Assembly: GCF_018476525.1 (NCBI RefSeq)
Contig: NZ_JAHCST010000069.1
Span: 1-48,329, forward strand
DNA from: Acrocarpospora catenulata
GTDB taxonomy: Bacteria; Actinomycetota; Actinomycetes; Streptosporangiales; Streptosporangiaceae
Direction: 5' to 3'
Length of the DNA stretch: 48,329 bases
Position numbers and translations under genes: made by a program. Position 1 is the first letter of the stretch. Each line of letters begins with the position of its first letter. Of this stretch, positions 17,592-32,695 are shown piece after piece. The notes beneath the pieces are model-generated. The model was not told where the DNA came from, made no database searches, and saw only the letters and a program-made list of their open reading frames with translations.

Positions 17592-17646
17592 GGTGAGCCG
17601 GGAAGCCTGGTCGGCGACGTTATCAGCGATCTTCGAAGGCGGAGTC

Positions 17647-18090
17647 ATGCGTGCTCGCGATCTTCTCGTCGACTTCCCCACCGTCAGCCTGGACACCCCC
17701 ATCCTGGAGGCGGCGCGGCTGCTGGCCGCGCGGCACCTGCCGGGGCTGATCGTCCTGAACCTGGTGGGAGCGCCCCTCACCATACTGCCGGGCACCCAGG
17801 TGCTCCGCCTGGCCGTCCCCGGCTACTGCCAGGAGGATCCGGCCCTGGCCCGCGTCATCGACGAGGCGCATGCCGATCGGATCTTCAGCGATCTGGCGGG
17901 CAGGACCGTCCGTGACGCCCTGCCCGCCGAACGCCGCGAGCTGCCCATCACCGACCCGGGTGCGACGGTGCTGGAGATCGCGGCGCTGATGGCGCGGACG
18001 CGCAGCCCGCTGGTCGCGGTGGTGGAAGGCGGGCGGCTGCTGGGCGCGGTCACCCTGCAGGGGCTGCTGGAGAGGGTCACCGCCGCGTGA
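17647..18090 (+). CDS. CBS-domain protein
   Basis: 147 residues from ATG 17647 (AAGG seven bases upstream); the in-frame GTG at 17593 would add a segment unlike a CBS domain. Two CBS motifs are seen: MRARDLLVDFPTVSLDTPILEAARLLAARHLPGLIVLN and RTVRDALP...DPGATVLEIAALMARTRSPLVAVVEGG, the first with a degenerate second half. CBS pairs bind adenine nucleotides and gate partner proteins. The stop overlaps the GTG of the transporter (GTGA), so it is probably a nucleotide-sensing subunit or regulator of that transporter. Confidence 0.85.
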   Translation: MRARDLLVDFPTVSLDTPILEAARLLAARHLPGLIVLNLVGAPLTILPGTQVLRLAVPGYCQEDPALARVIDEAHADRIFSDLAGRTVRDALPAERRELPITDPGATVLEIAALMARTRSPLVAVVEGGRLLGAVTLQGLLERVTAA

Positions 18091-19379
18091 GCGTGCTTGC
18101 CTGGCTGACGGTCGCGATCTTCCTCGGCGCGTACGCGCTGATCGCCACCGAGCGCATCCACCGGGTGGCCGCCGCGCTGGGCGGCGCCGGGCTGATGCTC
18201 CTGATCCGCGCCACCGACGCCGGGTCGGCCTTCTTCTCCGAGGAGACCGGGGTCGACTGGAACGTCGTGCTGCTGCTGCTCGGCATGATGGTCATCGTCG
18301 GGGTGCTCAAGCGGACCGGTGTGTTCGAGTACCTGGCGATCTGGGCCGCCAAGCGGGCGCGGGGCAGGCCGTACCGGCTGATGGTGCTGCTGGTGGTGAT
18401 TACGGCGGTCGCCTCGGCGATGCTCGACAACGTCACCACCGTGCTGCTCGTCGCGCCGGTCACCTTCCTGGTGTGCGAGCGGCTGGCGCTGCCCGTGGTG
18501 CCGTACCTGATCGCGGAGGCGATGGCCTCCAACATCGGCGGCACGGCCACCCTGGTCGGCGATCCGCCGAACATCATCATCGCCAGCCGGGGCGGGCTCA
18601 CCTTCAACGACTTCCTGGTGCACATGGCGCCCATGGTGGTCGTGCTGGTGGTGGCCTTCCTCTGGCTCTGCCGGCTGCTGTTCCGCAAGGTGTTCGTCTA
18701 CGATCCCGAGCGGGCGGCGGAGATCATGCGCCTGGACGAGCGGGAGGCCATTACCGACCGGCTCCTGCTCTGGCAGAGCATGGGCGTGCTGGTCCTGGTC
18801 ATGGCCGCCTTCGTGCTGCATCCCGTGCTCCACTACGAGCCCTCGGTGGTGGCAATCCTGGGGGCGGGCATCCTGGTCGCGGCCACCAAGGTGACCACCG
18901 AGCAGGCCCTGCAGGAGGTGGAGTGGGAGACGCTGGCGTTCTTCATGGGCCTGTTCGTCATGGTCGGCTCGCTGGTCGAGACCGGCGTCATCGGGAAGGT
19001 CTCCCAGCTGGCCGTGGAGGCCACCGCCGGTCACCTGGGGCTGACCGTGGGGGTGCTGCTCTGGGCCTCGGCCGGGCTGTCGGCCATCGTGGACAACATC
19101 CCGTACGTGGCGACGATGAGCCCCATCGTGTCCGAGCTGGTCACCGCCAACGGGGGCGCAGAACACGGCCAGGTGCTCTGGTGGGCGCTGGCGTTCGGCG
19201 CCGACCTGGGCGGCAACGCCACCGCGGTGGGCGCGGCGGCCAACGTGGTGGTGCTGGGCATCGCCGCCCGCAACGGCCACCCGATCAGCTTCTGGCAGTT
19301 CACCAGGTACGGACTGGTCGTCACGCTGGTCACGGTCGCCCTGGTGACGCCGTACCTGTGGCTGCGCTACCTGATGTGA
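18087..19379 (+). CDS. ArsB/NhaD-superfamily ion transporter
   Basis: 430 residues from GTG 18087, about 11-12 membrane helices. Two inverted-topology signatures typical of the IT superfamily (ArsB, NhaD, P-protein) are present: VASAMLDNVTTVLLVAP and, in the second half, GLSAIVDNIPYVATMSP; the re-entrant loops show GGTATLVGDPPNI and LGGNATAVGAAANVV. The family moves Na+/H+, arsenite or dicarboxylates; the Asp-Asn pairs fit cation or anion exchange, and the substrate cannot be named. Coupled to the CBS gene, it ends immediately before the hydrogenase promoter. An ion-homeostasis role in energy-limited cells is inferred from context. Confidence 0.85.
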   Translation: MSVLAWLTVAIFLGAYALIATERIHRVAAALGGAGLMLLIRATDAGSAFFSEETGVDWNVVLLLLGMMVIVGVLKRTGVFEYLAIWAAKRARGRPYRLMVLLVVITAVASAMLDNVTTVLLVAPVTFLVCERLALPVVPYLIAEAMASNIGGTATLVGDPPNIIIASRGGLTFNDFLVHMAPMVVVLVVAFLWLCRLLFRKVFVYDPERAAEIMRLDEREAITDRLLLWQSMGVLVLVMAAFVLHPVLHYEPSVVAILGAGILVAATKVTTEQALQEVEWETLAFFMGLFVMVGSLVETGVIGKVSQLAVEATAGHLGLTVGVLLWASAGLSAIVDNIPYVATMSPIVSELVTANGGAEHGQVLWWALAFGADLGGNATAVGAAANVVVLGIAARNGHPISFWQFTRYGLVVTLVTVALVTPYLWLRYLM

Positions 19380-19417
19380 GGGGCCGTTCGCCCTTCCGGT
19401 AAAGGGCCTTTGGCGGT
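19380..19417. promoter_or_regulatory. Pair of DosR/DevR-like boxes before the hydrogenase operon
   Basis: Compared with GGGNCNNNNGNCCC, 19380-19393 (GGGGCCGTTCGCCC) matches 7 of 8 fixed bases and 19404-19417 (GGGCCTTTGGCGGT) matches a left half plus centre (5 of 8). They lie 17-54 bases upstream of the predicted -35, the location of an activator. Chance matches are frequent in 70% GC DNA, so support rests mainly on position and gene content. Confidence 0.4.
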
Positions 19418-19433
19418 GTTTCCGGTTGCGCTC

Positions 19434-19462
19434 GGAGTCGTACCTTCGGGAGAGGGTATAAC
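19434..19462 (+). promoter_or_regulatory. Hydrogenase operon promoter
   Basis: TATAAC (19457-19462) is a good -10; 17 bases upstream the -35 position reads GGAGTC, which is weak, as expected for an activator-dependent promoter. The predicted start near 19469 is followed by a perfect GCCGGA-TATG-TCCGGC hairpin (19470-19485) in the leader, which ends 30 bases before the first codon. Confidence 0.5.
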
Positions 19463-19515
19463 GCTGGTCGCCGGATATGTCCGGCTTCCCCCGACCTGCG
19501 GCAGAGGGGGATGCC

Positions 19516-20586
19516 ATGGACACTGCGGTGGCGGATTCGCTGGATCCGCTGATCGCCGAGTTGCGCTCGCGCGGGTTCGCCGTGGTCGGGCCGACCGTCC
19601 GGGACAGGGCCATCCGGTTCGCCGAGATCACCGGCGCCGCCGAGCTGCCCGCGGGCCAGGGGGACGAGCAGGACCCCGGCCACTATCGCGTGGTCGAGCG
19701 GGACGACGAGCTGATGTTCGGGTTCGCCGCGAGCCCCGACTCGGCCAAGCGCTACACCCAGCCGCCCCGGCAGGCGCTGTTCCGGATGCGCGAGGGCACG
19801 GTGGAAGAGGCCGAGCAGGAGGCGCCGCGCGTGGCCCTGCTGGGGGTGCGAGCCTGCGACCTGGCGGCCATCGCCGTCCAGGACCGGGTCTTCCTGGGCA
19901 GGCATCCCGACCCGGCCTACCGGAAGCGGCGCGAGGCGCTGTTCCTGGTCGCGGTGAACTGCGCGGTGCCCGGCGGCACCTGCTTCTGCGTCTCCATGGG
20001 CACCGGGCCGAAGGCCACCGCCGGGTTCGACCTGGCGCTCACCGAGCTGACCGAGCCGCACCGGTTCCTGGTCGAGACCGGGAGCGAGCGGGGCGCGGAC
20101 GTCCTCGCGGGGATCCCGCACCGCCCGGCGAGCGCGGCGGACGTCGCCGCCGCCGAGGAGGTCTCGCGGGTCGCCGCCACCCGGATGGGCCGCGAGGTCG
20201 ACACCGAGAACATCCAGGAAAGCCTGGCCGCCGCGCACGACTCGCCCCGCTGGGCCGAGGTCGCCGGCCGCTGCCTGGCCTGCACCAACTGCACGATGGC
20301 CTGCCCCACCTGCTTCTGCACCACCGTCGAGGACGCCACCGACTTCACCGGGAGCCTCGCCGAGCGCACCGAGGTGTGGGACTCCTGCTTCACGCTCGCC
20401 TACTCCGAGGTCGGCGGCTCTCCCGTACGCGGCTCGGGGCCCGCCCGCTACCGGCAATGGCTCACCCACAAGTTCTCCACCTGGTACGACCAGTTCGGCG
20501 TGTCCGGCTGCGTGGGCTGCGGCCGGTGCATCACCTGGTGCCCGACCGGTATCGACGTCACCGAGGAACTGCGATGCATCCGATGA
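19516..20586 (+). CDS. [NiFe]-hydrogenase beta subunit (iron-sulfur, group 3b type)
   Basis: 356 residues from ATG 19516, with GAGGGGG 6-8 bases upstream. N-terminal HydB-like domain with [18 protein letters not shown] (about 112-130). Two [4Fe-4S] ferredoxin motifs: [12 protein letters not shown] near 253 and [12 protein letters not shown] near 332, plus Cys in [10 protein letters not shown] and TCFCTT. The subunit relays electrons between the hydrogenase small subunit and the FAD/NAD(P)-binding gamma subunit. First gene of a five-gene operon with overlapping junctions. Cytoplasmic. Confidence 0.92.
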
Positions 20587-21392
20587 CGCCGGCGCCGTAC
20601 CGGGTGAGCTCGCGCCGGGTGGACCGGGCCGACACCGTGACCCTGACCCTGAGGCCGATGGGCGGCCCGTGCCCGCCGTTCCGGCCTGGGCAGTTCACGA
20701 TGATCTACGCTCCGGGCGTCGGCGAGATCCCGGTTTCGATCAGCGGCCGGGCTCGGGCCGGGGGATACGCCCAGACGATCCGCGCGGTGGGCGCGGTCAG
20801 CCGCGCGCTCTGCCAGACCCGCCGCGGCGACGTCGTGGGCGTTCGCGGACCCTACGGCACGGCCTGGGATGTGCAGGCGGCGGCCGGGCTGGACGTGGTG
20901 GTGGCCGCGGGTGGACTCGGCCTGGCGGCGCTGCGGCCGGTCATCCGCGAGCTGGCCGCGCACGGCTCCCGGTACGGGCGGATCAGCCTGATCGTCGGCA
21001 CCCGCACCCCCGCCACCCTGATCTACCATCGCGAGCTGGCCCGCTGGCGCGACGTGCACGGCATCGACGTGCAGGTGACCGTGGACCACCCCGACCACGC
21101 CTGGAAAGGCCCCGTCGGGCTGGTGACCAGGCTGCTCGACCGCATCGTCTTCGAACCCCGGCGGACCTTCGCCTTCGTCTGCGGCCCCGAGGCCATGATG
21201 CGCGCGGTCGCCGACGACCTGGTCCGCCGGGGCGTCGCCGCCGGACGGGTGCTGCTCTCGGTGGAGCGCAACATGAAGTGCGGGGTCGGACGCTGCGGTC
21301 ACTGCCAGCTCGGACCGCTGTTCACCTGCCTGGACGGCCCCGTGCTCAGCTACGCGCGGGCGGCCGGGCTGCTGGCCGTGCCGGAGCTGTGA
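20574..21392 (+). CDS. [NiFe]-hydrogenase gamma subunit (FAD/NAD(P)-binding)
   Basis: 272 residues. ATG 20574 is chosen over 20583 because GAGGAA precedes it by 6 bases; it overlaps the beta-subunit gene by 13 bases. Ferredoxin-reductase-like: a flavin barrel with [10 protein letters not shown], an NAD(P)-binding half with [20 protein letters not shown] and [13 protein letters not shown], and a C-terminal [2Fe-2S] site with Cys in [19 protein letters not shown]. It exchanges electrons with NAD(P)H. Group 3b enzymes are cytoplasmic, usually reversible and NADP-linked. Confidence 0.92.
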
Positions 21393-22195
21393 TGGCCGGC
21401 CCCGCCTCGCGCCGTCCGAAGCTGGCCGTGTGGAAGTTCGCGTCCTGCGACGGCTGCCAGCTGACCCTGCTGGACTGCGAGGACGAGCTGCCGGCCGTGG
21501 CGGGCGCGGTGGATATCGCGCACTTCACCGAGGCGTCCAGCGCCGACGGGCCGGGGCCGTACGATCTGTCGCTGGTGGAGGGTTCCATCACCACCCCGGA
21601 CGACCTGCGCCGCATCCAGCACGTGCGGCGGGTGTCCAAACGCCTGGTGACGATCGGGGCCTGCGCCACCGCGGGCGGCATCCAGGCGCTGCGCGACTTC
21701 GCCGACGTGCGCGAGTACGCCTCCGTGGTCTACGCCCGGCCCGAGTACGTCGCCACGCTGGCGCGCTCCACTCCGATCTCGGCCCACGTGCCGGTGGACT
21801 TCGAGCTGCGCGGCTGCCCGATCGACAAGCGGCAGCTGCTGGAGGTCATCGCGGCCTTCCTGGCCGGGCGGCGGCCCTGCGTGCCCGCGCACAGCGTGTG
21901 CGTGGAGTGCAAGGCCAGGGGCAACGTCTGCGTCCTGGTCGCGCACGGCACCCCCTGCCTCGGACCGGTCACCCAGGCCGGGTGCGGGGCCCTGTGCCCG
22001 GCGTTCAACCGGGGCTGCTACGGCTGCTTCGGCCCGATGGAGAGCCCCAACGCGCGGGCGCTCAACGCGCGGCTGCGCGAGCTCGGGATGAGCACCCCCG
22101 AACTGGTCCGGATCTACCGGACCTTCAACGCGACCGAGGAGCCGTTCCGGCAGGCGGCCGAGCAGGCCGAACAGTCCGAGGAGGCCGATGGATGA
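21392..22195 (+). CDS. [NiFe]-hydrogenase small (delta) subunit
   Basis: 267 residues, ATG 21392 sharing one base with the previous stop (TGATG). The proximal [4Fe-4S] ligands are CDGCQ near residue 18, [11 protein letters not shown] near 88 and GCPID near 136; a second cluster set is [11 protein letters not shown], then [15 protein letters not shown] and GCYGCFGP toward residue 220. No twin-arginine signal, so the enzyme is cytoplasmic. Electron conduit from the NiFe site in the large subunit to the beta subunit. Confidence 0.93.
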
Positions 22196-23478
22196 CCCAC
22201 AAGTCGATCAGGATCGGTGGTCTGGCCCGCGTCGAGGGCCAGGGTTCCCTGCTGGTACGGGCCAGGGCCGGCCAGATCACCGGTCTGGAGCTGAACATCT
22301 ACGAGCCGCCCCGGTTCTTCGAGGCGCTGCTGCGCGGCAGGGCCCACACCGAACCGCCCGACATCACCGCGCGCATCTGCGGGATCTGCCCGGTGGCGTA
22401 CCAGATGAGCGCCTGCCAGGCGATCGAGGCGGCCTGCGGGGTGGAGGTCACCGGGCCGCTGCGGGACCTGCGGCTGCTCATGTACTACGGGGAGTGGATC
22501 GAGTCGCACGCCCTGCACATCTACCTGCTGCACGCCCCCGACTTCCTCGGCTACGACAGCGGTGTGGCCATGGCGGCCGACCACCGCCCCCACCTGGAGC
22601 GCGGCCTGGCGCTGAAGAAGGCGGGCAACGAGGTGGTGGCCACTCTCGGCGGCCGGGCCATCCACCCGGTGAACGTGCGGGTGGGCGGCTTCCACCGGGT
22701 GCCCGCCCGGGCCGAGCTGGCCCCGCTCGCGGAGCGGCTGCGCCGGGCGCTGGACCAGGCGCTGGCCACGGTGGAATGGGTGGCCGGCTTCGAGGCGCCC
22801 GAAGTGGAGCACGGCTACCGGTTCCTGGCGCTGCGCCATCCGCAGGAGTACGCGATCCTGTCCGGCTCGGTCGCGGTCAGCGATGGCACCGAGTTTTCGG
22901 CGGCCGACTGGCCCGTCCACGTGGTGGAGGAGCAGGTGCCGCACTCCACGGCCCTGCACGCGCGGCTCGACGGAGCCACCGGTTACCTGGTGGGCGCGCT
23001 GGCGCGCTACGCGCTCAACGGGGCGCTGCTCAATCCCGTGGCGCGTTCGGCGGCCGAGGCGGCCGGGCTCCCGCCGGTGTGCCGCAATCCCTTTCGCAGC
23101 ATCGTGGTCCGGGCCGTGGAGATCGTGCACGCCTGCGCCGAGGCGCTGCGCGTCATCGAGGGGTACGCCGAGCCGGACGTCCCGTATGTACCGGTCGAGC
23201 CCCGCGCGGGGGTGGGGCACGGGATCTCGGAGGCCCCGCGCGGCACGCTCTACCACCGCTACCGCCTGGACGGGGCGGGGCTGGTCGCGGAGGCCGCCAT
23301 CGTGCCGCCCACCTCGCAGAACCAGGCCCGCATCGAGATGGACCTGCGCGATCTCATCCAGCCCCGCCTGGGCCTGCCGGAGGCGGAGCTGGCGGCGCTC
23401 TGCGAGCGCGCGGTGCGCAACCACGACCCCTGCATCTCCTGCGCCGCCCACTTCCTCGACCTTCACCTGGACCGGTGA
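22192..23478 (+). CDS. [NiFe]-hydrogenase large (alpha) subunit, catalytic
   Basis: 428 residues from ATG 22192 (ATGA overlap). NiFe-site Cys pairs are intact: RICGICP near residue 62 and DPCISCAAH near 413-421. L1 continues PVAYQ, so the His (or Thr) usual at the tenth motif position is Tyr. Only eight residues (FLDLHLDR) follow the last motif His, a short tail for the maturation protease to remove. [11 protein letters not shown] near the start is the L0 motif. The heterodimer with the small subunit activates H2; with beta and gamma it exchanges electrons with NAD(P). HypA-F maturation genes are absent from the window. Confidence 0.93.
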
Positions 23479-23966
23479 GCGTGTCCAGTGTGGTCATCGG
23501 GATCGGCAACGACCTGCGCGGGGACGACGCGGCCGGGCTGGCGGCGGCCCGCCGGCTGCGCGGCGCGCTCCCGGACGGGGTGCGGCTGATCGAGAGCGGG
23601 GGCGACCTGGCCGGGCTGATCGAGGCGTGGTCGGGCGCGGACCTCGCGGTCGTGATCGACACGGTGGTCTCCGGCGCGCCGGCGGGCACCGTGCGCCGGC
23701 ACACCCCACTGGCGACCCCGGCGGAGATCCCGTGGCCCTCCCTGACCGCCCGGCATGGCAGCTCCCACGCGCTGGGCGTGGCCGACGCGATCGCGCTCGG
23801 CCGGGCACTCGGCCGACTGCCGCGGGAACTCGTGCTGTACACCGTCGAGGCCGCCGACCTCGGCCTCGGCGCGCCGCTCACCCCCGCGGTACGGCGGGGC
23901 GTGGCCCGGATCGCCGTAGCCGTGGCCCAACTCCTGCGCGACCAGAAAAATCACCCATTCGGGTGA
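23475..23966 (+). CDS. Hydrogenase maturation protease (HycI/HyaD family)
   Basis: 163 residues from GTG 23475, with a GTGA overlap. The Ni-probing Asp/Glu of the family is in GIGNDLRGDDAAG (about 8-20; Asp18 is the usual metal ligand) and His in TARHGSSHALGVADAI. It clips the C-terminus of the large subunit after Ni insertion. TCACCC-ATTC-GGGTGA overlaps its stop codon (23951-23966) and could form a small hairpin, but the following A-run is not a plus-strand terminator. Confidence 0.92.
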   Translation: MSVSSVVIGIGNDLRGDDAAGLAAARRLRGALPDGVRLIESGGDLAGLIEAWSGADLAVVIDTVVSGAPAGTVRRHTPLATPAEIPWPSLTARHGSSHALGVADAIALGRALGRLPRELVLYTVEAADLGLGAPLTPAVRRGVARIAVAVAQLLRDQKNHPFG

Positions 23967-24023
23967 AAAATCCCCAAGTTTGCAGGGAATGGAACCGGGA
24001 GAACGAACTCGGAGGCGGTGTCG

Positions 24024-25514
24024 ATGAGACCGTGGGCGCAGATCAAGGAAACGCACACCGCTGCTGTGATCTTTCTCGGTGACCGCGTTTTCAAGATCAA
24101 GAAGCCGGTGGATCTCGGCTTCCTGGACTTCACCACGCTCCAGGCCCGGCGTACCGGCTGCCAGGAGGAGGTGGCGCTCAACCGGCGGCTCGCCCCCGAC
24201 GTCTACGAGGGCGTCGCCGACGTGGTCGGCCCGGACGGCCAGGTCTGCGACCACCTGGTGGTGATGCGGCGCATGCCGGACGACCGCCGCCTCGCCGAAC
24301 TGGTCCACTCAGGAAAACCGGTCGAGGAACACCTGCGCCGCATCGCCCGCCTGCTCGCCAACATGCACGCCCACTCCCCGCACCGTCCGGAGATCGACGA
24401 ACAGGGCGGACGGCAGGCGCTGCGCGCCCGGTGGACGGCGAGCTTCGACCAGGTACGCGCGCTCCCCGGCGCGCTGGACAAGGACGTCCTCGACGAGATC
24501 GAACGCCTGGTGCTCCGATTCCTGGACGGCCGCGAGTCCCTGTTCGAGCTCCGCGTCGAGGAGGGCCGCATCGTGGACGGCCACGGCGACCTGCTGGCCG
24601 AGGACGTCTTCTGCCTGGAGGACGGCCCCCGGATCCTGGACTGCCTGGAGTTCGACGAGCGGCTGCGCTTCGTGGACGGCCTGGACGACGCGGCCTTCCT
24701 GGCCATGGACCTGGAGCGGCTGGGCGCGCCCCGGCTGTCGGAGCTGTTCCTCGGCTGGTACGCCGAGTTCTCCGGCGACTTCGCCCCGCCCGCGCTCTGG
24801 CACCACTACCTCGCCTACCGGGCCTTCGTCCGCGCCAAGGTCGCCTGCCTGCGGCAGCGGCAGGGGGACCCCGGCGCCGGCGGGCAGGCCCGTGAGCTCG
24901 CCGACCTCACCCTGCGCCACCTGCGGGCCGGCGCGGTCACGCTGGTCCTGGTCGGTGGCCCGCCCGGCACCGGCAAGTCGACGCTGGCCGCCGAACTCGC
25001 CGACCGGCTGGGCTACGTGCTGCTGAGCAGCGACCGGACCAGGAAGGAGCTGGCCGGCCTCGCCCCGGAGGAGTCCGCGGCCGCGCCCTTCGAGGAGGGC
25101 GTGTACAGCAGGGAGTGGACCGAGCGCACCTACGCCGAGCTGCTGGCCAGGGCCGAGCTGCTGTGCGGGCACGGCGAGCCGGTCATCCTCGACGCGTCCT
25201 GGACCGACCCCGCCCACCGGGCGGCCGCCGAACGGCTCGCCGAGCGCGCCCGCGCCGACCTGGTGGCCCTGCGGTGCACCGCGCCGCCGCAGGTCGTGGC
25301 CGAGCGCCTGGCCCGCCGTACGGGCGGGGTCTCCGACGCCGACCAGGCGGTCGCCACGGCCATGGCGGCGCGGACGGCGCCCTGGCAGGGCGGGGTCGAG
25401 ATCGACACCGGCGCGTGCCCGCCGCGGCCGGTGGAACGGGCGCTGGCGGCGGTCCACGCCCGCTGGGCCACGGCTCCCCGGCGGTTCCGGCGCCCTCAGA
25501 TGGAGCCGGGCTGA
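24024..25514 (+). CDS. Bifunctional phosphotransferase-like/ATP-binding protein (Rv2004c type)
   Basis: 496 residues. ATG 24024 has GGAGG eight bases upstream; GTG 24018 would be too close. The N-terminal half (about 1-300) is an aminoglycoside-phosphotransferase-like kinase fold: FKIKKPVDLGFLDF, the catalytic-loop motif DGHGDLLAEDVF near 190 (HGDL) and ILDCLEFDERLRFVD. The C-terminal half is a P-loop kinase with GGPPGTGKST near 315, then LSSDRTRKEL. The two-domain arrangement is that of mycobacterial Rv2004c, a DosR-regulon protein. Substrate unknown. It follows the protease gene by 57 bases, in the same direction, so co-transcription with the hydrogenase is possible. Confidence 0.85.
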   Translation: MRPWAQIKETHTAAVIFLGDRVFKIKKPVDLGFLDFTTLQARRTGCQEEVALNRRLAPDVYEGVADVVGPDGQVCDHLVVMRRMPDDRRLAELVHSGKPVEEHLRRIARLLANMHAHSPHRPEIDEQGGRQALRARWTASFDQVRALPGALDKDVLDEIERLVLRFLDGRESLFELRVEEGRIVDGHGDLLAEDVFCLEDGPRILDCLEFDERLRFVDGLDDAAFLAMDLERLGAPRLSELFLGWYAEFSGDFAPPALWHHYLAYRAFVRAKVACLRQRQGDPGAGGQARELADLTLRHLRAGAVTLVLVGGPPGTGKSTLAAELADRLGYVLLSSDRTRKELAGLAPEESAAAPFEEGVYSREWTERTYAELLARAELLCGHGEPVILDASWTDPAHRAAAERLAERARADLVALRCTAPPQVVAERLARRTGGVSDADQAVATAMAARTAPWQGGVEIDTGACPPRPVERALAAVHARWATAPRRFRRPQMEPG

Positions 25515-25534
25515 TTCAGCGTTGGGAGGGGCTG

Positions 25535-26197
25535 ATGCATACCACTGTCGAACAGGTGATGAGCCGGCAGGTGATCGCGGTGACCGAGGACACCTGCTTC
25601 AAGGACATCGCCGCCACACTCATCACCCACGGGGTCAGCGCCGTGCCGGTGCTGGCGAAGGACGGCCGGGTGGTCGGCATCGTCTCCGAGGCCGACCTGA
25701 CCCGTGCCGAGGAGTGCCGGGAGCTGTTCCGCGGCGAGGGCTACCAGGCGCCGGTGCACGGCGACGGCCGGGACCGGGCAGGCAGCACGGTGGCCGGCGA
25801 GCTGATGACCACCCCAGCGGTCACCGTCACGCCGGAGACCCCCGTGACGGTCGCCAGCCGCATGATGGACGAGCACGGCGTCAAACGCCTGCCGGTGGTG
25901 ACCGGTGACGGTCGCCTCGCGGGCATCGTCAGCCGCCGCGACGTGCTGAAGGTGTTCGTCCGCTCCGACCAGGACCTCGAACACGAGATCAAGGTGGACA
26001 TCCTGAGCCGCTCCCTCTGGATGGACACCGCGCGGGTGCACGTCGCGGTCGCCGACGGCGTGGTGACCATCACCGGCCGGATGGGGCTGCGCCGCGACAC
26101 CGAAGTCACGGTGTGGATGGTCCGGCAGGTCGACGGGGTGGTCGAGGTACGCGACCAGCTGGGCTGGGACCGCGACGACACACCGGTCGGCGGCTGA
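25535..26197 (+). CDS. CBS-CBS-BON domain protein (Hrp1-like)
   Basis: 220 residues, ATG 25535 with GGGAGGGG upstream, 20 bases after the kinase gene. Two CBS motifs: VEQVMSRQVIAV...GVSAVPVLAKDGRVVGIVSEADL (1-60) and VAGELMTTPAVTV...HGVKRLPVVTGDGRLAGIVSRRDVL (87-140). A BON domain follows (about 150-215; VHVAVADGVVTITGRM). CBS pairs bind AMP/ATP; BON is membrane- or ligand-binding. It is the usual stress-type CBS protein of actinomycetes; mycobacterial Hrp1 (Rv2626c) of the DosR regulon is a shorter relative. It ends next to the oppositely oriented membrane protein gene. Confidence 0.9.
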   Translation: MHTTVEQVMSRQVIAVTEDTCFKDIAATLITHGVSAVPVLAKDGRVVGIVSEADLTRAEECRELFRGEGYQAPVHGDGRDRAGSTVAGELMTTPAVTVTPETPVTVASRMMDEHGVKRLPVVTGDGRLAGIVSRRDVLKVFVRSDQDLEHEIKVDILSRSLWMDTARVHVAVADGVVTITGRMGLRRDTEVTVWMVRQVDGVVEVRDQLGWDRDDTPVGG

Positions 26198-26614
26198 TCA
26201 GTGGTGGGCGTGGGTGTACTCGTCCCGCCGCCGCAGCATGACCGCCAGCATGAGCGGGAACATCGCCACGTGCGCCACCATCATCAGGGCCATCCCGTCG
26301 ATCACGTCCAGCCACAGGAGCGGGAACAGCGGCACGATCGGGGCGAACATGGCGCCGCACATCTCCAGCGTCGGGGCCCAGGCGTGGCCGCGCACGCGCA
26401 TCCAGGCGGCCATGCCCACGGACATGTCGAAGGCCATCAGCAGGTAGGCGAGCTCCGGGTCGCGGGCGTAGGAGAGGTCGATCCCGAAGGCGGACCAGAG
26501 CAGGTCGAGCGCGAACATCCCGGCGAACATGGCGATGATCATCTCGACGTAGTGCAGCGCGAACCGTCCCCAGCGCCGCGCCTGGGACCGGGTGCCGGCC
26601 ATGGTCTGAGTCAT
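26198..26614 (-). CDS. Small four-helix membrane protein, unknown function
   Basis: 138 residues from ATG 26614; stop is adjacent to that of the CBS-BON gene. Four hydrophobic helices (about 23-45, 54-76, 84-104, 108-128) are rich in Met (MIIAMFAGMFAL, DGMALMMVAHVAMFPLM), and the tail ends DEYTHAHH. Met- and His-rich composition could mean metal binding, but nothing proves it. Similar proteins are widely but loosely labelled as flagellar FliP-like; the flagellar assignment makes no sense here. Divergent from the GlxA-type regulator, with which it shares 98 bases of regulatory DNA. Confidence 0.65.
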   Translation of the reverse strand: MTQTMAGTRSQARRWGRFALHYVEMIIAMFAGMFALDLLWSAFGIDLSYARDPELAYLLMAFDMSVGMAAWMRVRGHAWAPTLEMCGAMFAPIVPLFPLLWLDVIDGMALMMVAHVAMFPLMLAVMLRRRDEYTHAHH

Positions 26615-26667
26615 GGTCCAACTGTCCGGGTGGCCGCGGGCGGTGCCAAGGACGGCGGCCGAGACAG

Positions 26668-26699
26668 GTCAGAAAACTTGGGGTCCCCGTCCTTCTGAC
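26668..26699. promoter_or_regulatory. Inverted repeat between membrane-protein and GlxA-type genes
   Basis: GTCAGAA (26668-26674) and TTCTGAC (26693-26699) enclose a central GGGGTCCCC (26680-26688). It lies 13 bases before the regulator ATG and 54 before the membrane-protein start, so it could control both. A site for the AraC/GlxA-type regulator itself is the simplest idea. Confidence 0.4.
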
Positions 26700-26712
26700 A
26701 TAGCCTCGAGCC

Positions 26713-27690
26713 ATGACCGGGCGGAGGGTGGTCGTGGTCGGGTACCACGCGGCGGAACTGCTCGACATCGCCTGCGTGACGTCGACCCTGATCGCGGCGA
26801 ACGTACAGGGCGGCGCCCCGCTCTACGACGCGTGCCTGGCCACGCCGTCGGGCCGGCCCATCACCTGTGCCAGCGGGCTGACCCTCCAGGGGCAGCGGTC
26901 CCTCCAGCGTGTCACAGGACCGCTGGACACGCTGATCGTGTCGGGGGGAATCGGGCACGAGGACGCGGCCGAGGACCGGCTGATCGTCGCCCACGTCCGC
27001 CGCCTGGCCCGGGAGAGCCGCCGCGTCGCCTCGGTGTGCACCGGCGCGGCGGTGCTGGCCGCCGCGGGCCTGCTCGACGGCCGGCGCGCCACCACCCACT
27101 GGCAGTACGCGCCCGTGCTCGCCGCCCGCCATCCGGAGATCGTCGTCGACGCCGACCCGATCTTCATCCGGGAGGGCAAGGTCGCCACGGCCGCCGGCGT
27201 CACCAGCGCCCTGGACCTGACCCTCGCCTTCATCGAGGAGGACCACGGCCCCGCCCTCGCCCGGAAGGTGGCCCGCAACCTGGTGACCTACCTGCAACGG
27301 CCCGGCAACCAGGCGCAGATGAGCATGTTCACCGAGGGCCCGCCACCCGGCAACCACCTGGTCAGGCAGGTGGTCGACCACATCACCTGCCACCTGGAGG
27401 CCGACCTGTCCACGGCCGCCCTGGCGGCCGGCGCGGGCGTCAGCGAGCGCCACCTGACCCGGCTGTTCCTCCGGCACCTGGGCCAGACCCCGGGCCGTTT
27501 CGTCCGCCGGGCCCGTACCGAGGCCGCCGCCCACCTGCTGGCCGCCACCTCCCTGCCCATGGCCGCGATCGCGACCCAGTGCGGCTTCGGCACGGCCGAG
27601 ACCCTCCGCCAGGCCTTCGTCGACCGTTACGGCATCCCGCCCTCGCGCTACCGCCTGACCCAGGGCGGTAACGGGTCCTTCGTCACCTGA
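26713..27690 (+). CDS. GlxA-family AraC-type transcriptional regulator
   Basis: 325 residues. The N-terminal 190 residues are a DJ-1/PfpI fold: VVVVGYHAAELLDIA at the start and the nucleophile-elbow region ASVCTGAAVLAAAGLLDGRRATTHW, with Cys near residue 114. The C-terminal AraC DNA-binding domain (about 215-315) has two helix-turn-helix units, VSERHLTRLFLRHLG and PMAAIATQCGFGTAETLRQAF, ending in GIPPSRYR. Such regulators control amine, quaternary ammonium or stress genes. No ribosome site is obvious, and the start may be leaderless. Its 3' end overlaps a DosR-like box for the next gene. Confidence 0.92.
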   Translation: MTGRRVVVVGYHAAELLDIACVTSTLIAANVQGGAPLYDACLATPSGRPITCASGLTLQGQRSLQRVTGPLDTLIVSGGIGHEDAAEDRLIVAHVRRLARESRRVASVCTGAAVLAAAGLLDGRRATTHWQYAPVLAARHPEIVVDADPIFIREGKVATAAGVTSALDLTLAFIEEDHGPALARKVARNLVTYLQRPGNQAQMSMFTEGPPPGNHLVRQVVDHITCHLEADLSTAALAAGAGVSERHLTRLFLRHLGQTPGRFVRRARTEAAAHLLAATSLPMAAIATQCGFGTAETLRQAFVDRYGIPPSRYRLTQGGNGSFVT

Positions 27691-27708
27691 TTCCAGGCCC
27701 GACGTCCC
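27673..27708. promoter_or_regulatory. Two DosR/DevR-like boxes 22 bases apart, before the GH65 gene
   Basis: GGGTCCTTCGTCAC (27673-27686) and AGGCCCGACGTCCC (27695-27708) each match GGGNCNNNNGNCCC at 7 of 8 fixed bases. The registers differ by exactly 22 bases, about two helical turns, the usual tandem spacing of DosR sites. The first sits in the last codons of the regulator gene; the second ends 38 bases before the GH65 start. Confidence 0.4.
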
Positions 27709-27746
27709 TCCGGCGAGCGCCCAGGGCAGGCGTAGCGTCGCAAGAG

Positions 27747-30113
27747 GTGAACCCCTGGAAGCTTGTCTACGACGGATTCGACCCGGCAGGGGAAGGCGTG
27801 CGCGAAGCCCTCTGCACGCTGGGCAACGGCTACTTCGCCACCCGGGGGGCCGCGCCGGACGCCGTCGCCGACGAGGTGCACTACCCCGGCACCTATTTCG
27901 CGGGCTGCTACGACCGTCTCACCTCGGCCGTCGCCGGGCGGACGGTGACCGACGAGTCGATGGTCAACGCGCCCAACTGGCTGCCGCTGACCTTCGCCAC
28001 CCCGGACTCCGACTGGTTCGCCACCAGCAGGGCCGACCTGCTCGGTTACCGCCAGGAGCTGGATCTGCGGCACGGGCTGCTCGACCGGAGCCTGCTCGTC
28101 CGCGACGCCTACGGCCGCCGCACCGCCGTCCGGCAGCGCCGCCTGGTCTCCATGGCCGATCCGCACCTGGCCGCCCTGGAGACGACCTTCACCGCCGAGA
28201 ACTGGTCGGGGACCGTACGGGTGCGCTCGGCACTCGACGGCCGGGTGCGCAACGGCGGCGTGCCACGCTACCGCGACCTGCGCGGCGACCACCTGGTCGA
28301 CCACGCCGTCGGCCAGGCCGCGGACGCCACCTGGCTACGCGCCCGCACCCGGTCCTCGGAGATCACGATCGCCCTGGCCGCCCGGGTGGAGCCCGGCGAC
28401 GGCGCGGGTGCGGCGCTTCAGGAGCCGGGCTGGATCGAGGAGCACCGCGACCTCCACCTGGAACCGGGCGTGCCCCGGACGATCGTCAAGACGGTGGCGC
28501 TCGCCACCTCCCGCGACCACGCCACCGCCGACGCCCGCTCCACCGCCCTCCGCCTGGTACGGCTGGCACCGCGGTTCCCCGTCCTGCTGGCCCGCCACCG
28601 CCTGGCCTGGGACCGCCTGTGGACGCGGGCCCGCCTCGACCTGGGCGACCCGGCGGACGCGCACCACCTCCACCTGCACACCTTCCATCTCCTGCAGACC
28701 CTCTCCCCGCACAGCGCCGACCTCGACGCAGGGGTCCCGGCGCGCGGGCTGCACGGCGAGGCCTACCGGGGGCACGTGTTCTGGGATGAACTGTTCGTCC
28801 TGCCCTGGCTGAACGTGCGGTTCCCCGAGATCAGCCGCGCCGTGCTCCGCTACCGCCACCGCCGCCTGCCCGAAGCCCGGGCCGCCGCGCGCGACCTCGG
28901 CCTGCCCGGCGCCCTGTTCCCCTGGCAGAGCGGCAGCGACGGGCGGGAGGAGACGCCGCTGCTCCACCTGAACCCCCGCTCGGGCCACTGGCTGCCGGAC
29001 AACTCCCGCCTCCAGCGGCACGTCGGTCTGGCCGTCGGCTACAACGTCTGGCAGCACTACGCGGCCACCGGAGACCTGGAGTTCCTCACCGGGTTCGGCG
29101 GGGAGCTCCTGATCGAGACCGCCAGGTTCGCCGCCGCGCTGGCCCGGCTGGAACCCGCCTCAGGACGGTACGAGATCCGCGGCGTCATGGGCCCGGACGA
29201 GTACCACGACGCCTACCCCGGCGCGGACCGCCCCGGGCTGGACAACAACGCCTACACCAACGTCATGACCGTCTGGCTGCTGCGGCGCGCCCGCGAGACC
29301 CTCCGCCTGCTGCCCCGGCGGGAACGCGAGGAGCTGACGGCGCGGCTCGCGCTCACCGGCGAGGAGCTGGCCCGCTGGGAGAAGATCGTCCGCCGGATGC
29401 GGGTGGACTTCCACGACGGGGTGATCAGCCAGTTCACCGGGTACGCCGACCTGCCGGAACTGGACTGGGACCGCCACCGGGGCGTGCGCAGGCTGGACCG
29501 CGCGCTGGAGTCGCGGGGCGACAGCCCCAACCGGTACCGGGCCGCCAAGCAGGCCGACGTGCTCATGCTGTTCTACCTGCTCACCGCGGAGGAACTGCGG
29601 GAGATCCTGGAAGGGCTCGGATACGCGCTCCCACCCGAGATGGTCCGCGAGACCGTCCGCTACTACCTCGCGCGAACCTGCCACGGGTCCACGCTGAGCG
29701 CCATCGTGCACGCCTGGGTGCTGTCCCGGTCGGACCGCTCCCGGTCGTGGCGCTTCTTCACCGAGGCGCTGGGCGGCGACCTCACCGACGTCCAGCGCGG
29801 CACCACCGCCGAGGGCATCCACCTGGGCGCGATGGCCGGCACCCTGGACCTGGTCCAGCGCTGCTACCTCGGCCTGGAGGTCCGGCACGGCGAACTCCAC
29901 CTGAACCCGCTCCTGCCCGACCGGTTCGCCCTGCTCTCCCTGCCGATCCGGGTGCGCGGCGCCACCGTGTCCATCGACATCGACCACGACAAGGCCAGGA
30001 TCGCCCGCGCCGACGACGGCCCCGCGTACCTGCGGGTGACCGTGCAGGGCCGGCCCGTCGAACTCCGCCGCGACGCCGAGCACACCTTCTCCCTCCGGCC
30101 CCGCCCCGGATAA
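27747..30113 (+). CDS. Glycoside hydrolase/phosphorylase family 65
   Basis: 788 residues from GTG 27747; only a weak GAG precedes it. N-terminal super-sandwich (about 1-260, NPWKLVYDGF...LGNGYFATRG), linker, then an (alpha/alpha)6 barrel with WDELFVLPWLN (about 348) and the general acid Glu485 in MGPDEYHDAYPG; phosphate-binding region near CHGSTLSAIVHAWV. Family members are trehalose, kojibiose or maltose phosphorylases and some hydrolases. The domain also forms the C-terminal half of mycobacterial Rv2006 (OtsB1), a DosR-regulon protein. Here it stands alone without the phosphatase half. Trehalose or kojibiose turnover in resting cells is inference. Confidence 0.9.
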   Translation: MNPWKLVYDGFDPAGEGVREALCTLGNGYFATRGAAPDAVADEVHYPGTYFAGCYDRLTSAVAGRTVTDESMVNAPNWLPLTFATPDSDWFATSRADLLGYRQELDLRHGLLDRSLLVRDAYGRRTAVRQRRLVSMADPHLAALETTFTAENWSGTVRVRSALDGRVRNGGVPRYRDLRGDHLVDHAVGQAADATWLRARTRSSEITIALAARVEPGDGAGAALQEPGWIEEHRDLHLEPGVPRTIVKTVALATSRDHATADARSTALRLVRLAPRFPVLLARHRLAWDRLWTRARLDLGDPADAHHLHLHTFHLLQTLSPHSADLDAGVPARGLHGEAYRGHVFWDELFVLPWLNVRFPEISRAVLRYRHRRLPEARAAARDLGLPGALFPWQSGSDGREETPLLHLNPRSGHWLPDNSRLQRHVGLAVGYNVWQHYAATGDLEFLTGFGGELLIETARFAAALARLEPASGRYEIRGVMGPDEYHDAYPGADRPGLDNNAYTNVMTVWLLRRARETLRLLPRREREELTARLALTGEELARWEKIVRRMRVDFHDGVISQFTGYADLPELDWDRHRGVRRLDRALESRGDSPNRYRAAKQADVLMLFYLLTAEELREILEGLGYALPPEMVRETVRYYLARTCHGSTLSAIVHAWVLSRSDRSRSWRFFTEALGGDLTDVQRGTTAEGIHLGAMAGTLDLVQRCYLGLEVRHGELHLNPLLPDRFALLSLPIRVRGATVSIDIDHDKARIARADDGPAYLRVTVQGRPVELRRDAEHTFSLRPRPG

Positions 30114-30149
30114 CGGCCCAATGGCCGCCCCGCCAGGGACCTATGGCCC
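30114..30149. promoter_or_regulatory. Tandem DosR/DevR-like boxes before the nitroreductase gene
   Basis: GGGACCTATGGCCC (30136-30149) matches the DosR core GGGNCNNNNGNCCC at all 8 fixed bases. CGGCCCAATGGCCG (30114-30127), a perfect palindrome, matches 6 of 8 and lies exactly 22 bases upstream. The pair fills the gap between the GH65 stop and the nitroreductase leader. About 0.7 perfect core match is expected by chance in the intergenic DNA of this window, so the pairing and context matter more than the match. Confidence 0.5.
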
Positions 30150-30200
30150 GCGTCGGTTCACGCTCTCCGGGGCAGGGTGAGCGTGTCAGGAGGTGACGGA

Positions 30201-31208
30201 GTGTCGACACGAGAAGAACTTCAGACTGTGGTGGAGGCGGCGGTCTGGGCGCCGTCGGTGCACAACAGCCAGCCGTGGTCGTTCGCCATCGCCGGGGAGG
30301 AGATCAGCCTCCGCGCCGACACCGACCGGCGGCTCCGCGTGGGCGACCCGGAGGGACGGCAACTGCTGCTCAGCTGTGGGGCGGCGCTGTTCAACATGCG
30401 TACGGCGGTGCGCGCCATGGGCCACGTGCCGGTGGTGCGCGTGCTGCCCGACCCGGACCGCCCCGCCCTGCTGGCCACGGTACGGATCGGCGCCGCGGAG
30501 CCGGTCGAGGAGCGCGTCGAGGCGATCCGCGCGGAGATCCCCCGGCGTCGGACCCACCGGGCGGGCTTCACCGACCGCCCGATCCCCGAACGGGTGCTGG
30601 AGGCGCTGGTGAAGGAGGCCAACCGGGAGGGCGCCCTGCTCACCCCGGTCAGATCACCGGCCGCGGTGCGCATCCTGTCGGCGCTCACCACGGCGGCCCA
30701 GCATGTGGAGGCGGAAGACCAGGCGTTCGGCCTGGAGATGATCCGCTGGGGCCGCCGGCCGGGAAACAGCCGCAGGGACGGCGTGCCCGCGGAGTCCTAC
30801 CCCCGGCAGACCGGGCAGACCTCCCCGGACTTCCCCCAGCGCGACTACGCGCACGGCCAGGGCTGGGGCAGCCCCGACGACCAGTCGATGGCGACGGAAA
30901 CCGGCGTGGTCGCCCTGCTCACCACCCGGACCGACACCCGCATGGACTGGCTCCACGCCGGACAGGCCCTGCAGGCCGTACTGCTGCACGCCGCCACCCA
31001 CGGGATCGGCGCCGCCTTCCACACCCAGTTGCTGGAATACGAGCACCTGCGCGCCTTCGTCGCCGAGGAACTCTGCTCGGGCCAGTTCCCGCAGATGGTG
31101 ATGCGTCTCGGCTACCCACCCGACCGGGGCGAGGGCGTACGCCGCCCCCTGGGCGAGGTCGTCACCGAGGGGCAGTCCCCTATCGGGCACACAATGGGTT
31201 TGACATGA
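30201..31208 (+). CDS. Acg-like FMN-binding nitroreductase-family protein
   Basis: 335 residues. GTG 30201 is fixed by AGGAGG seven bases upstream; GTGs at 30177 and 30183 lack one. WAPSVHNSQPWSF near residue 14 is the typical flavin-binding start of Acg proteins; a second half-domain begins near 165, and HAGQALQAVLLHAATHGIGAAFH near 255 closes the fused two-lobe fold. The long loop 185-235 (RQTGQTSPDFPQRD) covers the flavin site, as in Acg, which sequesters FMN rather than reducing nitro compounds. Mycobacterial relatives Rv2032, Rv3127 and Rv3131 belong to the DosR regulon. Tandem DosR-like boxes precede it. Confidence 0.88.
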   Translation: MSTREELQTVVEAAVWAPSVHNSQPWSFAIAGEEISLRADTDRRLRVGDPEGRQLLLSCGAALFNMRTAVRAMGHVPVVRVLPDPDRPALLATVRIGAAEPVEERVEAIRAEIPRRRTHRAGFTDRPIPERVLEALVKEANREGALLTPVRSPAAVRILSALTTAAQHVEAEDQAFGLEMIRWGRRPGNSRRDGVPAESYPRQTGQTSPDFPQRDYAHGQGWGSPDDQSMATETGVVALLTTRTDTRMDWLHAGQALQAVLLHAATHGIGAAFHTQLLEYEHLRAFVAEELCSGQFPQMVMRLGYPPDRGEGVRRPLGEVVTEGQSPIGHTMGLT

Positions 31209-31256
31209 TTTGACAGACGATGTTGAAATGTCCTGTTTCGTGGGCAGGGTCGTGAT

Positions 31257-31925
31257 ATGCGATCTTCTTCGAACCCGGAGAACCCGGAACGGGCGGAGGA
31301 AGTTCAGGTGCCTGCGGACATGGTGCGGCTGCCGGGGACGCTGGTGCGGCCCGGGGAGACGGGCGGGATCGTGGTGTTCGTGCACGGCAGCGGCAGCAGC
31401 CGGCACAGCCCGCGCAACCGCTACGTGGCCCGGGAACTCCAGCGGGCCGGTCTTGGCACGCTCCTGTTCGACCTGCTGACCGCCGTCGAGGAGACCGACC
31501 GCCGCAAGGTGTTCGACATCGCACTGCTCGCCGGGCGGCTGCGCCAGGTCACCGAATGGCTGCGCGGGCGCATGCCCACGGCCAGGATCGGCTACTTCGG
31601 CGCCAGCACCGGCGCGGCGGCCGCCCTCTGGGCCGCGGCCCTGGAGAAGGACATCGGCGCGGTGGTCTCCAGGGGTGGTAGGCCTGATCTGGCCGGACCC
31701 TGGCTGGCCGCCGTCACCGCCCCCACCCTGCTCATCGTGGGGGAACGCGACCCGCAGGTCCTGGCGCTCAACCTTGACGCGCAGCGGAGGCTGCACGGGG
31801 AGAGCCACCTGGAGGTCGTGCCCGGCGCCACCCACCTCTTCGAGGAGGCGGGCGCCCTGGAACGCGTGGCCGACCTGGCCCGCGACTGGTTCACCCGCCA
31901 CCTCACCGCCGTGACCGCCACCTGA
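31257..31925 (+). CDS. Alpha/beta hydrolase (dienelactone hydrolase-like)
   Basis: 222 residues from ATG 31257 (AGGG seven bases upstream); an in-frame GTG at 31308 with GGAGGA six bases upstream is an equally good start and would remove a hydrophilic 17-residue leader. Oxyanion region VVFVHGSGSSRHS, nucleophile elbow GYFGASTGAAAAL (Ser in GAST), Asp in LIVGERDPQVL and His in PGATHLFEEAG complete a catalytic triad. The fold resembles the hydrolase part of mycobacterial Rv0571c, another DosR-regulon protein, without its phosphoribosyltransferase part. Substrate unknown. Stands 48 bases after the nitroreductase gene. Confidence 0.88.
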   Translation: MRSSSNPENPERAEEVQVPADMVRLPGTLVRPGETGGIVVFVHGSGSSRHSPRNRYVARELQRAGLGTLLFDLLTAVEETDRRKVFDIALLAGRLRQVTEWLRGRMPTARIGYFGASTGAAAALWAAALEKDIGAVVSRGGRPDLAGPWLAAVTAPTLLIVGERDPQVLALNLDAQRRLHGESHLEVVPGATHLFEEAGALERVADLARDWFTRHLTAVTAT

Positions 31926-32000
31926 TACCGATGGTTGCGCTCCACGCTTGGTGAATTACCCTCTGTTACGATCATGGCGGTCGTGCACGAGGAGGTACCG

Positions 32001-32414
32001 GTGAGGCCGTGGACGCGGGCGATTGTGGTTTGCGCCGTCGCCTGGGGGGCGGCGCTGGGGAGCGCCGTCGCCTGGGCTGAGGAGGCGCCGCCGGAGACCC
32101 CGGACAACTCCGAGCTTTCCCGGCTGGTCGGGGCCGATCTCGGGAGCGTGGTCCGCATGTTGCCGGGGGTGTTGTGCGGCTACCGGCTGGTCAGTTACAA
32201 CTCGCCGGTCACCAACTCACCGGTGATCTGCGTCAACGGGCCGATCGCCAGCGGCAACTCGACCCACAGCGGGAACTACGTCAGCCACGGTAACCCGGTG
32301 AACAGCGGGAACTTCTCGAACACCAACGGGTCGACCGGGAGCGCCAACGCGTCGAACAGCGGCAACGCCGCCAACGGGCGCCAGGAGAACAGGGTCAAGG
32401 AGATCGCGCGATGA
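32001..32414 (+). CDS. Small secreted Asn/Ser/Gly-repeat protein A
   Basis: 137 residues from GTG 32001, fixed by GAGGAGG six bases upstream; the longer frame from 31935 lacks one. Residues 1-27 are a signal peptide (IVVCAVAWGAALGSAVAWA). The mature protein has a helical start (SELSRLVGADLG), a pair of Cys (VLCGY...VICVN) with SPVTNSPV between them, then about 50 residues of degenerate SGN repeats (SGNST, HSGNY, VSHGN, NSGNF) and a basic tail ANGRQENRVKEIAR. Such low-complexity strands could form a beta-solenoid or amyloid-like surface layer, somewhat as chaplins do, but it is not a recognisable chaplin. The stop overlaps gene B by ATGA. Confidence 0.75.
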   Translation: MRPWTRAIVVCAVAWGAALGSAVAWAEEAPPETPDNSELSRLVGADLGSVVRMLPGVLCGYRLVSYNSPVTNSPVICVNGPIASGNSTHSGNYVSHGNPVNSGNFSNTNGSTGSANASNSGNAANGRQENRVKEIAR

Positions 32415-32695
32415 TGATTGTGACGTCGGTCGCCGCGCTTGCCATCGCGCCGATCATCGCCACCGGGGTTGACCCGAAGGACAGCTCCAACACCAACACC
32501 AGCGGTGACACCTACAACACCGGCAACAGCGAAAACAGCGGCAACTTCCGCAGCGAAAGCACCGCGATCAACAGCGGCAACTTCGGCAACGCCAACGGCG
32601 GGACCAACAGCAACAACGCCGCGATCAGCACGAACCTGGCCGACGGCCGGCAGAAGATCATCGTGATCAAGCGTCTCATCAAGCGGAAGTGCTGA
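32411..32695 (+). CDS. Small secreted Asn/Ser/Gly-repeat protein B
   Basis: 94 residues from ATG 32411, translationally coupled to A. A short hydrophobic leader (VTSVAALAIAPIIATG) probably exports it. Residues 28-75 consist of NSGNF-type repeats (TGNSENSGNFRSES, INSGNFGNANGGT). The stretch NSGNFGNANGG to DGRQ aligns with NSGNFSNTNGS to NGRQ of protein A, 18 of 28 residues identical by eye, so the genes are tandem duplicates. It differs in lacking the Cys pair and in its strongly basic hydrophobic tail (IIVIKRLIKRKC), which may bind membrane or wall. No known family recognised. Confidence 0.72.
   Translation: MMIVTSVAALAIAPIIATGVDPKDSSNTNTSGDTYNTGNSENSGNFRSESTAINSGNFGNANGGTNSNNAAISTNLADGRQKIIVIKRLIKRKC

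Follow-up and report, generated by a model that had tools for sequence, protein, structure and literature searches.

In Mycobacterium smegmatis, the genes of the Hyh hydrogenase (hyh, msmeg_3931-3927) abut, by locus number, a cluster bearing devR (msmeg_3932-3955) and are upregulated 7.6- to 67-fold at 0.6% O2 (PMC2799521), and the Dos regulon of this species is said to include Hyh, Hhy, and Acg (PMC8125079). OsdR of Streptomyces coelicolor is the orthologue of DevR, and the OsdR-OsdK pair shows that the system exists outside mycobacteria; its box (AGGGCCGATCGGCCCT) is of the same kind as the boxes described below, the targets near osdR include Usp, nitroreductase, and nitrate reductase genes, and the main text of that paper contains no word that begins with “hydrogenase” (PMC5069765). 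A 2026 paper on Rhodococcus equi describes a 3b hydrogenase and mentions neither DosR nor DevR (PMC13332983). At the level of titles and beginnings of abstracts in the open-licence literature, no report of hyh as a DosR target outside mycobacteria was found, nor was any literature joining Streptosporangium, DosR, and hydrogenase. Here we analyse a stretch of 48,329 nucleotides from Acrocarpospora catenulata (contig NZ_JAHCST010000069.1; hereafter, the window), in which an hyh operon lies within 14 kb of genes for a two-domain kinase, a CBS-BON protein, a GH65 enzyme, and an Acg-like oxidoreductase. An initial annotation regarded these 14 kb as one hypoxia/redox-survival island with its own regulator, and invoked the hypoxic induction and DosR link of M. 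smegmatis Hyh, which the first two papers bear out.

In our opinion, this gene set is probably one piece of a dispersed low-oxygen regulon of the DosR/DevR (OsdR) type, the members of which are spread over several contigs. A dispersed regulon is suggested, rather than one self-regulated island, because boxes and gene proximity are partial, the transporter and GlxA genes are unlinked, and the gene order is not conserved. The arrangement differs from that of M. smegmatis, where hyh lies beside the devR cluster: here, hyh is on another contig than DosR, has GH65, kinase, and CBS-BON genes beside it, and carries a weak box. It also differs from the OsdR regulon, in that a group 3b-like hydrogenase, a GH65 enzyme, and the kinase join the gene set. 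That DosR controls Hyh is known from M. smegmatis; newer is the recurrence of this link among other actinomycete families.

The initial annotation made the link depend on a DosR/DevR-like regulator elsewhere in the genome, and two DosR-DosS modules were found on other contigs, with regulators above threshold at C35:12286 and C156:31600. The first regulator matches DevR over 211 residues (E 1e-80), the stretch EKTVKNYVS, which we take to be the recognition helix, being identical; the second copy is 84% identical to the first. The kinase beside the first regulator has a GAF domain matching that of DevS (E 5e-50) and keeps the histidine of the HPPM motif, which, counted along the chain, is presumably the haem ligand His149; the kinase beside the second is 76% identical to it (tblastn). 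Strict DosR boxes stand upstream of both dosR genes. Further boxes precede cydA/adh, phosphoketolase, Usp, a second Acg, a CBS-type gene, a P-type ATPase, and a divergent PFL/GAPDH pair (adh, GAPDH, and the CBS-type gene were named by eye). Of 20 genome regions examined, 15 were selected by a strict box and 5 by a Usp gene. Among the former, the box lay upstream of a DosR-type gene in 5 regions, upstream of a different gene in 5, and inside a gene or away from gene starts in the remaining 5.

A box form with a wrong, six-N spacing gave 66 matches against 86 expected and was replaced by a 14-base form. The relaxed palindrome with one mismatch was rarer in the window than expected (74 vs. 157); loose counts were therefore abandoned, and promoters were scored by weight matrices, with permutation of the columns as a control. 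Training of the first matrix used 8 boxes of this genome, 7 before DosR-type genes and 1 before a DUF2267-like gene (by eye). The second, used for the island promoters below, was built from 12 boxes of this genome and 8 congener boxes picked with the first matrix; its training set excludes the window and the tested hyh, kinase, and GH65 promoters and includes a paralogous Acg promoter.

Three of the nine island promoters reach 7.8 bits, a threshold picked after the scores were seen, compared with a permuted mean of 0.30; three are reached by 6 of 400 permutations and the top score by 9 of 400, and outside the island 1 of 19 promoters in the window reaches 7.8 bits (Table 1). The box before the Acg-like gene (core GGGACCTATGGCCC) starts 43 bp upstream of it, as compared with 41 and 45 bp in the congener loci L118 and L119; DosR control of this gene is well supported. 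Control of GH65 through its weak tandem boxes, the first of which overlaps the end of the GlxA gene, is probable. DosR possibly also controls hyh in this genome, through the borderline 18-mer AGGGGCCGTTCGCCCTTC; hyh boxes are common elsewhere. A decayed box suspected by eye at the canonical place before hyh (~19440) was dropped, as it scores below -5 bits. The kinase (2.0 bits), CBS-BON (-6.2), and hydrolase (-5.4) genes could be transcribed by read-through from upstream genes; the remaining promoters score -3.7 (CBS-transporter), -1.2 (GlxA), and -3.1 bits (membrane gene).

In relatives, a box scoring 10 bits or higher stands upstream of Acg in 14 of 29 cases (permuted mean 0.35), hyh in 27 of 78 (1.68), and the kinase in 5 of 26 (0.47), counts that none of 60 permutations reaches; at 8 bits or more, the kinase has 10 of 26, compared with 0.78. 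Of the GH65 promoters, 3 of 28 reach 10 bits (permuted mean 0.42). For Acg, GH65, and the transporter, only promoters from the best-matching loci were scored (29, 28, and 20, respectively). With the first matrix, 28 of 77 hyh promoters (36%) were boxed, compared with 1.9 under permutation and with 1 of 80 interior stretches of the large-subunit gene. If genes at the operon head such as CBS-BON are allowed, a box reaching 8 bits is present in 14 of the 21 Streptosporangiaceae-like hyh operons (a raw count).

Gene proximity was surveyed in 120 genomes of the family within 40 kb, with chance figures that assume a uniform genome size of 7.5 Mb and disregard contig breaks. Acg lies near DosR in 26 of the 53 genomes with both, as compared with ~0.9 expected, the A. 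catenulata genome being counted among those where the two are not near. With this genome left aside, the kinase is near Acg in 11 of 25 genomes and near DosR in 6 of 27, and hyh is near Acg in 6 of 23 and near DosR in 4 of 23 (each ~0.3-0.5 expected); by raw counts, GH65 is near the kinase in 6 of 17, DosR in 7 of 40, and Acg in 6 of 34. This recurrent proximity supports a more than accidental grouping of the gene types, though not as a 14-kb unit. In the flanking DNA compared for 22 mycobacterial hyh loci, an Acg-like match occurs in 20, the hydrolase in 3, GH65 in 3, and the kinase in 1 (Usp, CBS, and P-type ATPase counts there are based on broad families). A compact form of the regulon occurs in Thermoactinospora rubra (L039:1-6700), where DosR, three CBS-type genes, and hyh are consecutive, with a 21-bit box before the first CBS gene.

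In the conserved-neighbourhood comparison proposed in the initial annotation, Acg, kinase, hyh, and GH65 recur near DosR or near one another, but their order in the window does not recur in the hyh loci compared. The link to the DosR regulon holds by position in relatives for Acg, the kinase, GH65, and hyh, and for Acg, hyh, and the kinase also by boxes; it is not supported for the CBS-transporter pair and the GlxA gene, which are most likely bystanders. The transporter was rejected as a regulon member, since none of 20 promoters of the pair in relatives is boxed, nor is the one here, and in none of the 33 genomes with both does it lie within 40 kb of DosR. The GlxA-type protein, which the initial annotation took for the island's own regulator, has no DosR box here and is found in none of the 80 hyh loci compared (the best 80 of 576 confirmed loci, each with up to 10 kb of flanking DNA per side and often less).

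Several observations weigh against the dispersed regulon. In this genome, six of the nine island promoters have no box, motif hits over the whole window do not exceed permutation (5 vs. 8.2 at 7 bits), and the strict pattern is not over-represented genome-wide (116 matches vs. 246 for the reversed pattern). The hyh box is borderline, and a score of 8 bits arises with permuted matrices in ~5% of hyh promoters (3.68 of 78). In relatives, no box was found in 7 of 21 Streptosporangiaceae-like hyh loci, and S. canum (L037), with the closest hyh among the matches listed (85%), has none. GH65 boxes of at least 8 bits (4 of 28 vs. 1.08) are equalled by 2 of 60 permutations. Moreover, the first matrix gives 10 bits or more at 233 of 1358 gene starts (17%) across the 80 hyh loci. 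This leaves hyh only about twofold above its own surroundings, which may reflect DosR-rich neighbourhoods or a loose motif. As to proximity, only 1 of the 10 other genomes that contain both hyh and the kinase has them close together, and for hyh and GH65 the figure is 2 of 16. Finally, CO induces part of the M. smegmatis Dos regulon, not including Hyh (PMC8125079).

Some of these points would also fit a narrower regulon, which we consider rather unlikely, in which DosR would control the Acg-like gene alone, perhaps together with the hydrolase, and hyh, kinase, and GH65 are nearby by descent from a scrambled stress region and independently expressed, hyh perhaps from its own promoter or by read-through from the transporter gene, which ends 136 bp before it on the same strand. 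The Acg box alone is strong and present in congeners, and the hyh box scores only 7.9 bits and has no counterpart in S. canum; yet the hyh and kinase promoters of many relatives are boxed, and three island promoters jointly outscore permuted motifs. The opposite extreme, the coherent island of the initial annotation with a GlxA-type regulator and an ion transporter of its own, appears very improbable. Although the region is compact and on one strand except for one gene, and the CBS-transporter pair occurs beside hyh in one other genome (G031) and shortly after Acg in another (G005), neither the 14-kb gene order, nor the GlxA gene, nor the small membrane gene recurs in any of the best 80 of 576 hyh loci, and the transporter is near hyh in only one of seven other genomes in addition to its lack of boxes and of proximity to DosR.

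Three sampled congeners do not match hyh (at E 1e-100), the kinase (1e-60), or GH65 (1e-150), which again speaks against a single island and would be expected if these three had arrived together as a horizontally acquired package, the more so as all three congeners have DosR and two have Acg (the third gave no Acg match). We regard such an acquisition as improbable. The mean third-position GC of the 14 island genes (0.938) equals that of 24 outside genes in the same window (0.937), tRNA and Rfam scans of the whole window were empty (no search aimed at integrases was made), and in related genera these genes persist in different arrangements, which makes loss as likely as acquisition.

The genes named in the initial annotation are all present on the forward strand, close to where it had placed them, by Pfam or NCBIfam; some Pfam searches used over-long open reading frames (ORFs). 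The small membrane-like protein, which that annotation did not list, breaks the gene run and has no Pfam or NCBIfam match.

Table 1 Genes and DosR-type boxes of the 14-kb region (positions in the window)
Feature	Position	Strand	Evidence
CBS-domain protein	17593..18090 (start 17593 or 17647)	+	Pfam CBS 40 bits
CitMHS/ArsB-type ion transporter	18087..19379	+	Pfam CitMHS 313 bits; weaker ArsB 87, NhaB 44
Borderline DosR-like box before hyh	19379..19396	+	7.9 bits second matrix, 11.0 first
Hydrogenase beta (Fe-S) subunit	19516..20586	+	NCBIfam sulfhydrogenase beta 162 bits, below cut-off; no Pfam match of its own
Hydrogenase gamma (FAD/NAD) subunit	20574..21392	+	Pfam NAD_binding_1, DHODB_Fe-S_bind; NCBIfam below cut-offs
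Hydrogenase delta (small) subunit	21389..22195	+	Pfam Oxidored_q6; NCBIfam sulfhydrogenase delta 166 bits, below cut-off
Hydrogenase alpha (NiFe large) subunit	22192..23478	+	Pfam NiFeSe_Hases; RICGIC and DPCISC motifs
Hydrogenase maturation protease	23475..23966	+	TIGR00072 104.8 bits (cut-off 47.45); HycI protease
Two-domain kinase	24018..25514	+	Pfam AAA_33 99 bits, C half
CBS-CBS-BON protein	25556..26197	+	Pfam CBS 105.7, BON 27.4 bits, scored on longer ORF 25115-26197
Small membrane-like protein	26198..26614	-	
GlxA-type DJ-1/PfpI-AraC regulator	26713..27690	+	Pfam HTH_18, DJ-1_PfpI
Two weak tandem DosR-like boxes before GH65	27671..27710	+	10.6 bits at 27671, 7.9 at 27693, 22 bp apart
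GH65 enzyme, complete	27747..30113	+	Pfam GH65 N, middle, C domains
DosR/OsdR-type box before Acg-like gene	30134..30151	+	14.4 bits; core at 30136-30149
Acg-family FMN-binding oxidoreductase	30177..31208	+	NCBIfam NF047509 302 bits (cut-off 199); Pfam Nitroreductase
Alpha/beta hydrolase	31257..31925	+	Weak Pfam abhydrolase matches

The claim of a complete group 3b-like hydrogenase stands, with the class assigned from the subunit set and the closest solved chain. The set of alpha, beta, gamma, and delta subunits is complete by Pfam and NCBIfam together, with an NAD-binding gamma subunit and subunit matches in NCBIfam below the curated cut-offs, and a protease is present. The group 3b-like label fits the closest solved chain of the large subunit in the PDB, “Sulfhydrogenase 1 subunit alpha” (E 3e-65). 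The four-subunit layout is common to the A. catenulata enzyme and group 3b [NiFe] hydrogenase/sulfhydrogenase 1, an enzyme we take to be from Pyrococcus; the one described here is distant from it in sequence and has its own protease gene attached. The maturation gene hypD is on another contig (C108), beside hypC, E, F, and A-like genes and a second hydrogenase (by eye). The latter stretch (L258:2749-12530), with a 598-residue large subunit that is Hhy-like by eye, holds no DosR-type box of at least 8 bits.

The Acg-like nitroreductase call was upheld well above the family cut-off, and the protein also matches Acg itself (PDB 2ymv, E 8e-18). The CBS partner of the transporter, predicted to be translationally coupled, shares 4 bp with it. 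For the transporter, CitMHS is the strongest family and the ArsB and NhaB matches are weaker. Of the Rv2004c-type two-domain kinase, only the C half was recovered by Pfam; the nature of the N half and the likeness to Rv2004c are our assumption, and a PDB search with the kinase gave no match. The best PDB match of the GH65 enzyme is the trehalose-6-phosphate hydrolase 9lb6 (E 3e-133), followed by kojibiose phosphorylase. The alpha/beta hydrolase, presumably similar to Rv0571c, is 60-62% identical to the hyh-adjacent hydrolases of 3 of the 22 mycobacterial loci; in one of these (L072), it is fused to a phosphoribosyltransferase-like half (by eye), and the other two have no full-length open half of this kind upstream.

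Beyond the island, two small genes with a 4-bp overlap (31935-32695) encode secreted-looking, Asn/Ser/Gly-rich products without a Pfam match. They are followed on the reverse strand (32724-37051) by genes for an FAD oxidase (BBE), an O-methyltransferase, a kynureninase-like protein, and a tryptophan dioxygenase (by eye), possibly a cluster for a kynurenine-derived metabolite.

From the gene identities, the modules, the box sequences, and the statistics of the relatives, we infer the following course of signalling, induction, and enzyme direction in the dispersed regulon. The DosS-type haem kinase and DosR encoded on the other contigs most likely sense the loss of oxygen (or NO). Once phosphorylated, DosR would bind its box upstream of the Acg-like gene; binding to the tandem GH65 boxes is probable, and binding to the weak hyh box is possible. 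The Acg product would hold flavin, GH65 would release a sugar or sugar phosphate from a disaccharide, and Hyh would pass surplus electrons of NAD(P)H to protons, giving H2. A plausible route for carbon would lead from GH65 and phosphoketolase on to PFL, while Hyh would release the excess NAD(P)H electrons as H2.

The PFL gene (PFL-like 710 bits, glycine radical 118 bits) and the GAPDH-like gene (by eye) lie at L167:9306-12766 on contig C156 and diverge from a shared DosR-type box of 19.9 bits, which points to fermentation driven by DosR in an actinomycete considered an aerobe. At L023:13449-17454 (contig C160), selD, selA, and selB-like genes (by eye) stand beside phosphoketolase and Usp and hint at a selenoprotein, e.g., formate dehydrogenase.

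We tentatively consider a broader proposal, which falls somewhat short of being probable: that DosR runs a full fermentative programme in filamentous actinomycetes regarded as aerobic, in which GH65 and phosphoketolase would feed sugar phosphate, PFL and GAPDH would carry carbon, cytochrome bd would scavenge oxygen, and Hyh would vent H2, and that Hyh is an old recurrent target of DosR across Actinomycetota rather than a mycobacterial speciality. The box scores make the promoters individually testable. If the proposal is true, the switch that mycobacteria and Streptomyces use on oxygen loss would also govern an H2-evolving metabolism in soil actinomycetes of several families, so that the dormancy regulon could be studied in safe organisms and hypoxic H2 in soil would have a source open to testing.

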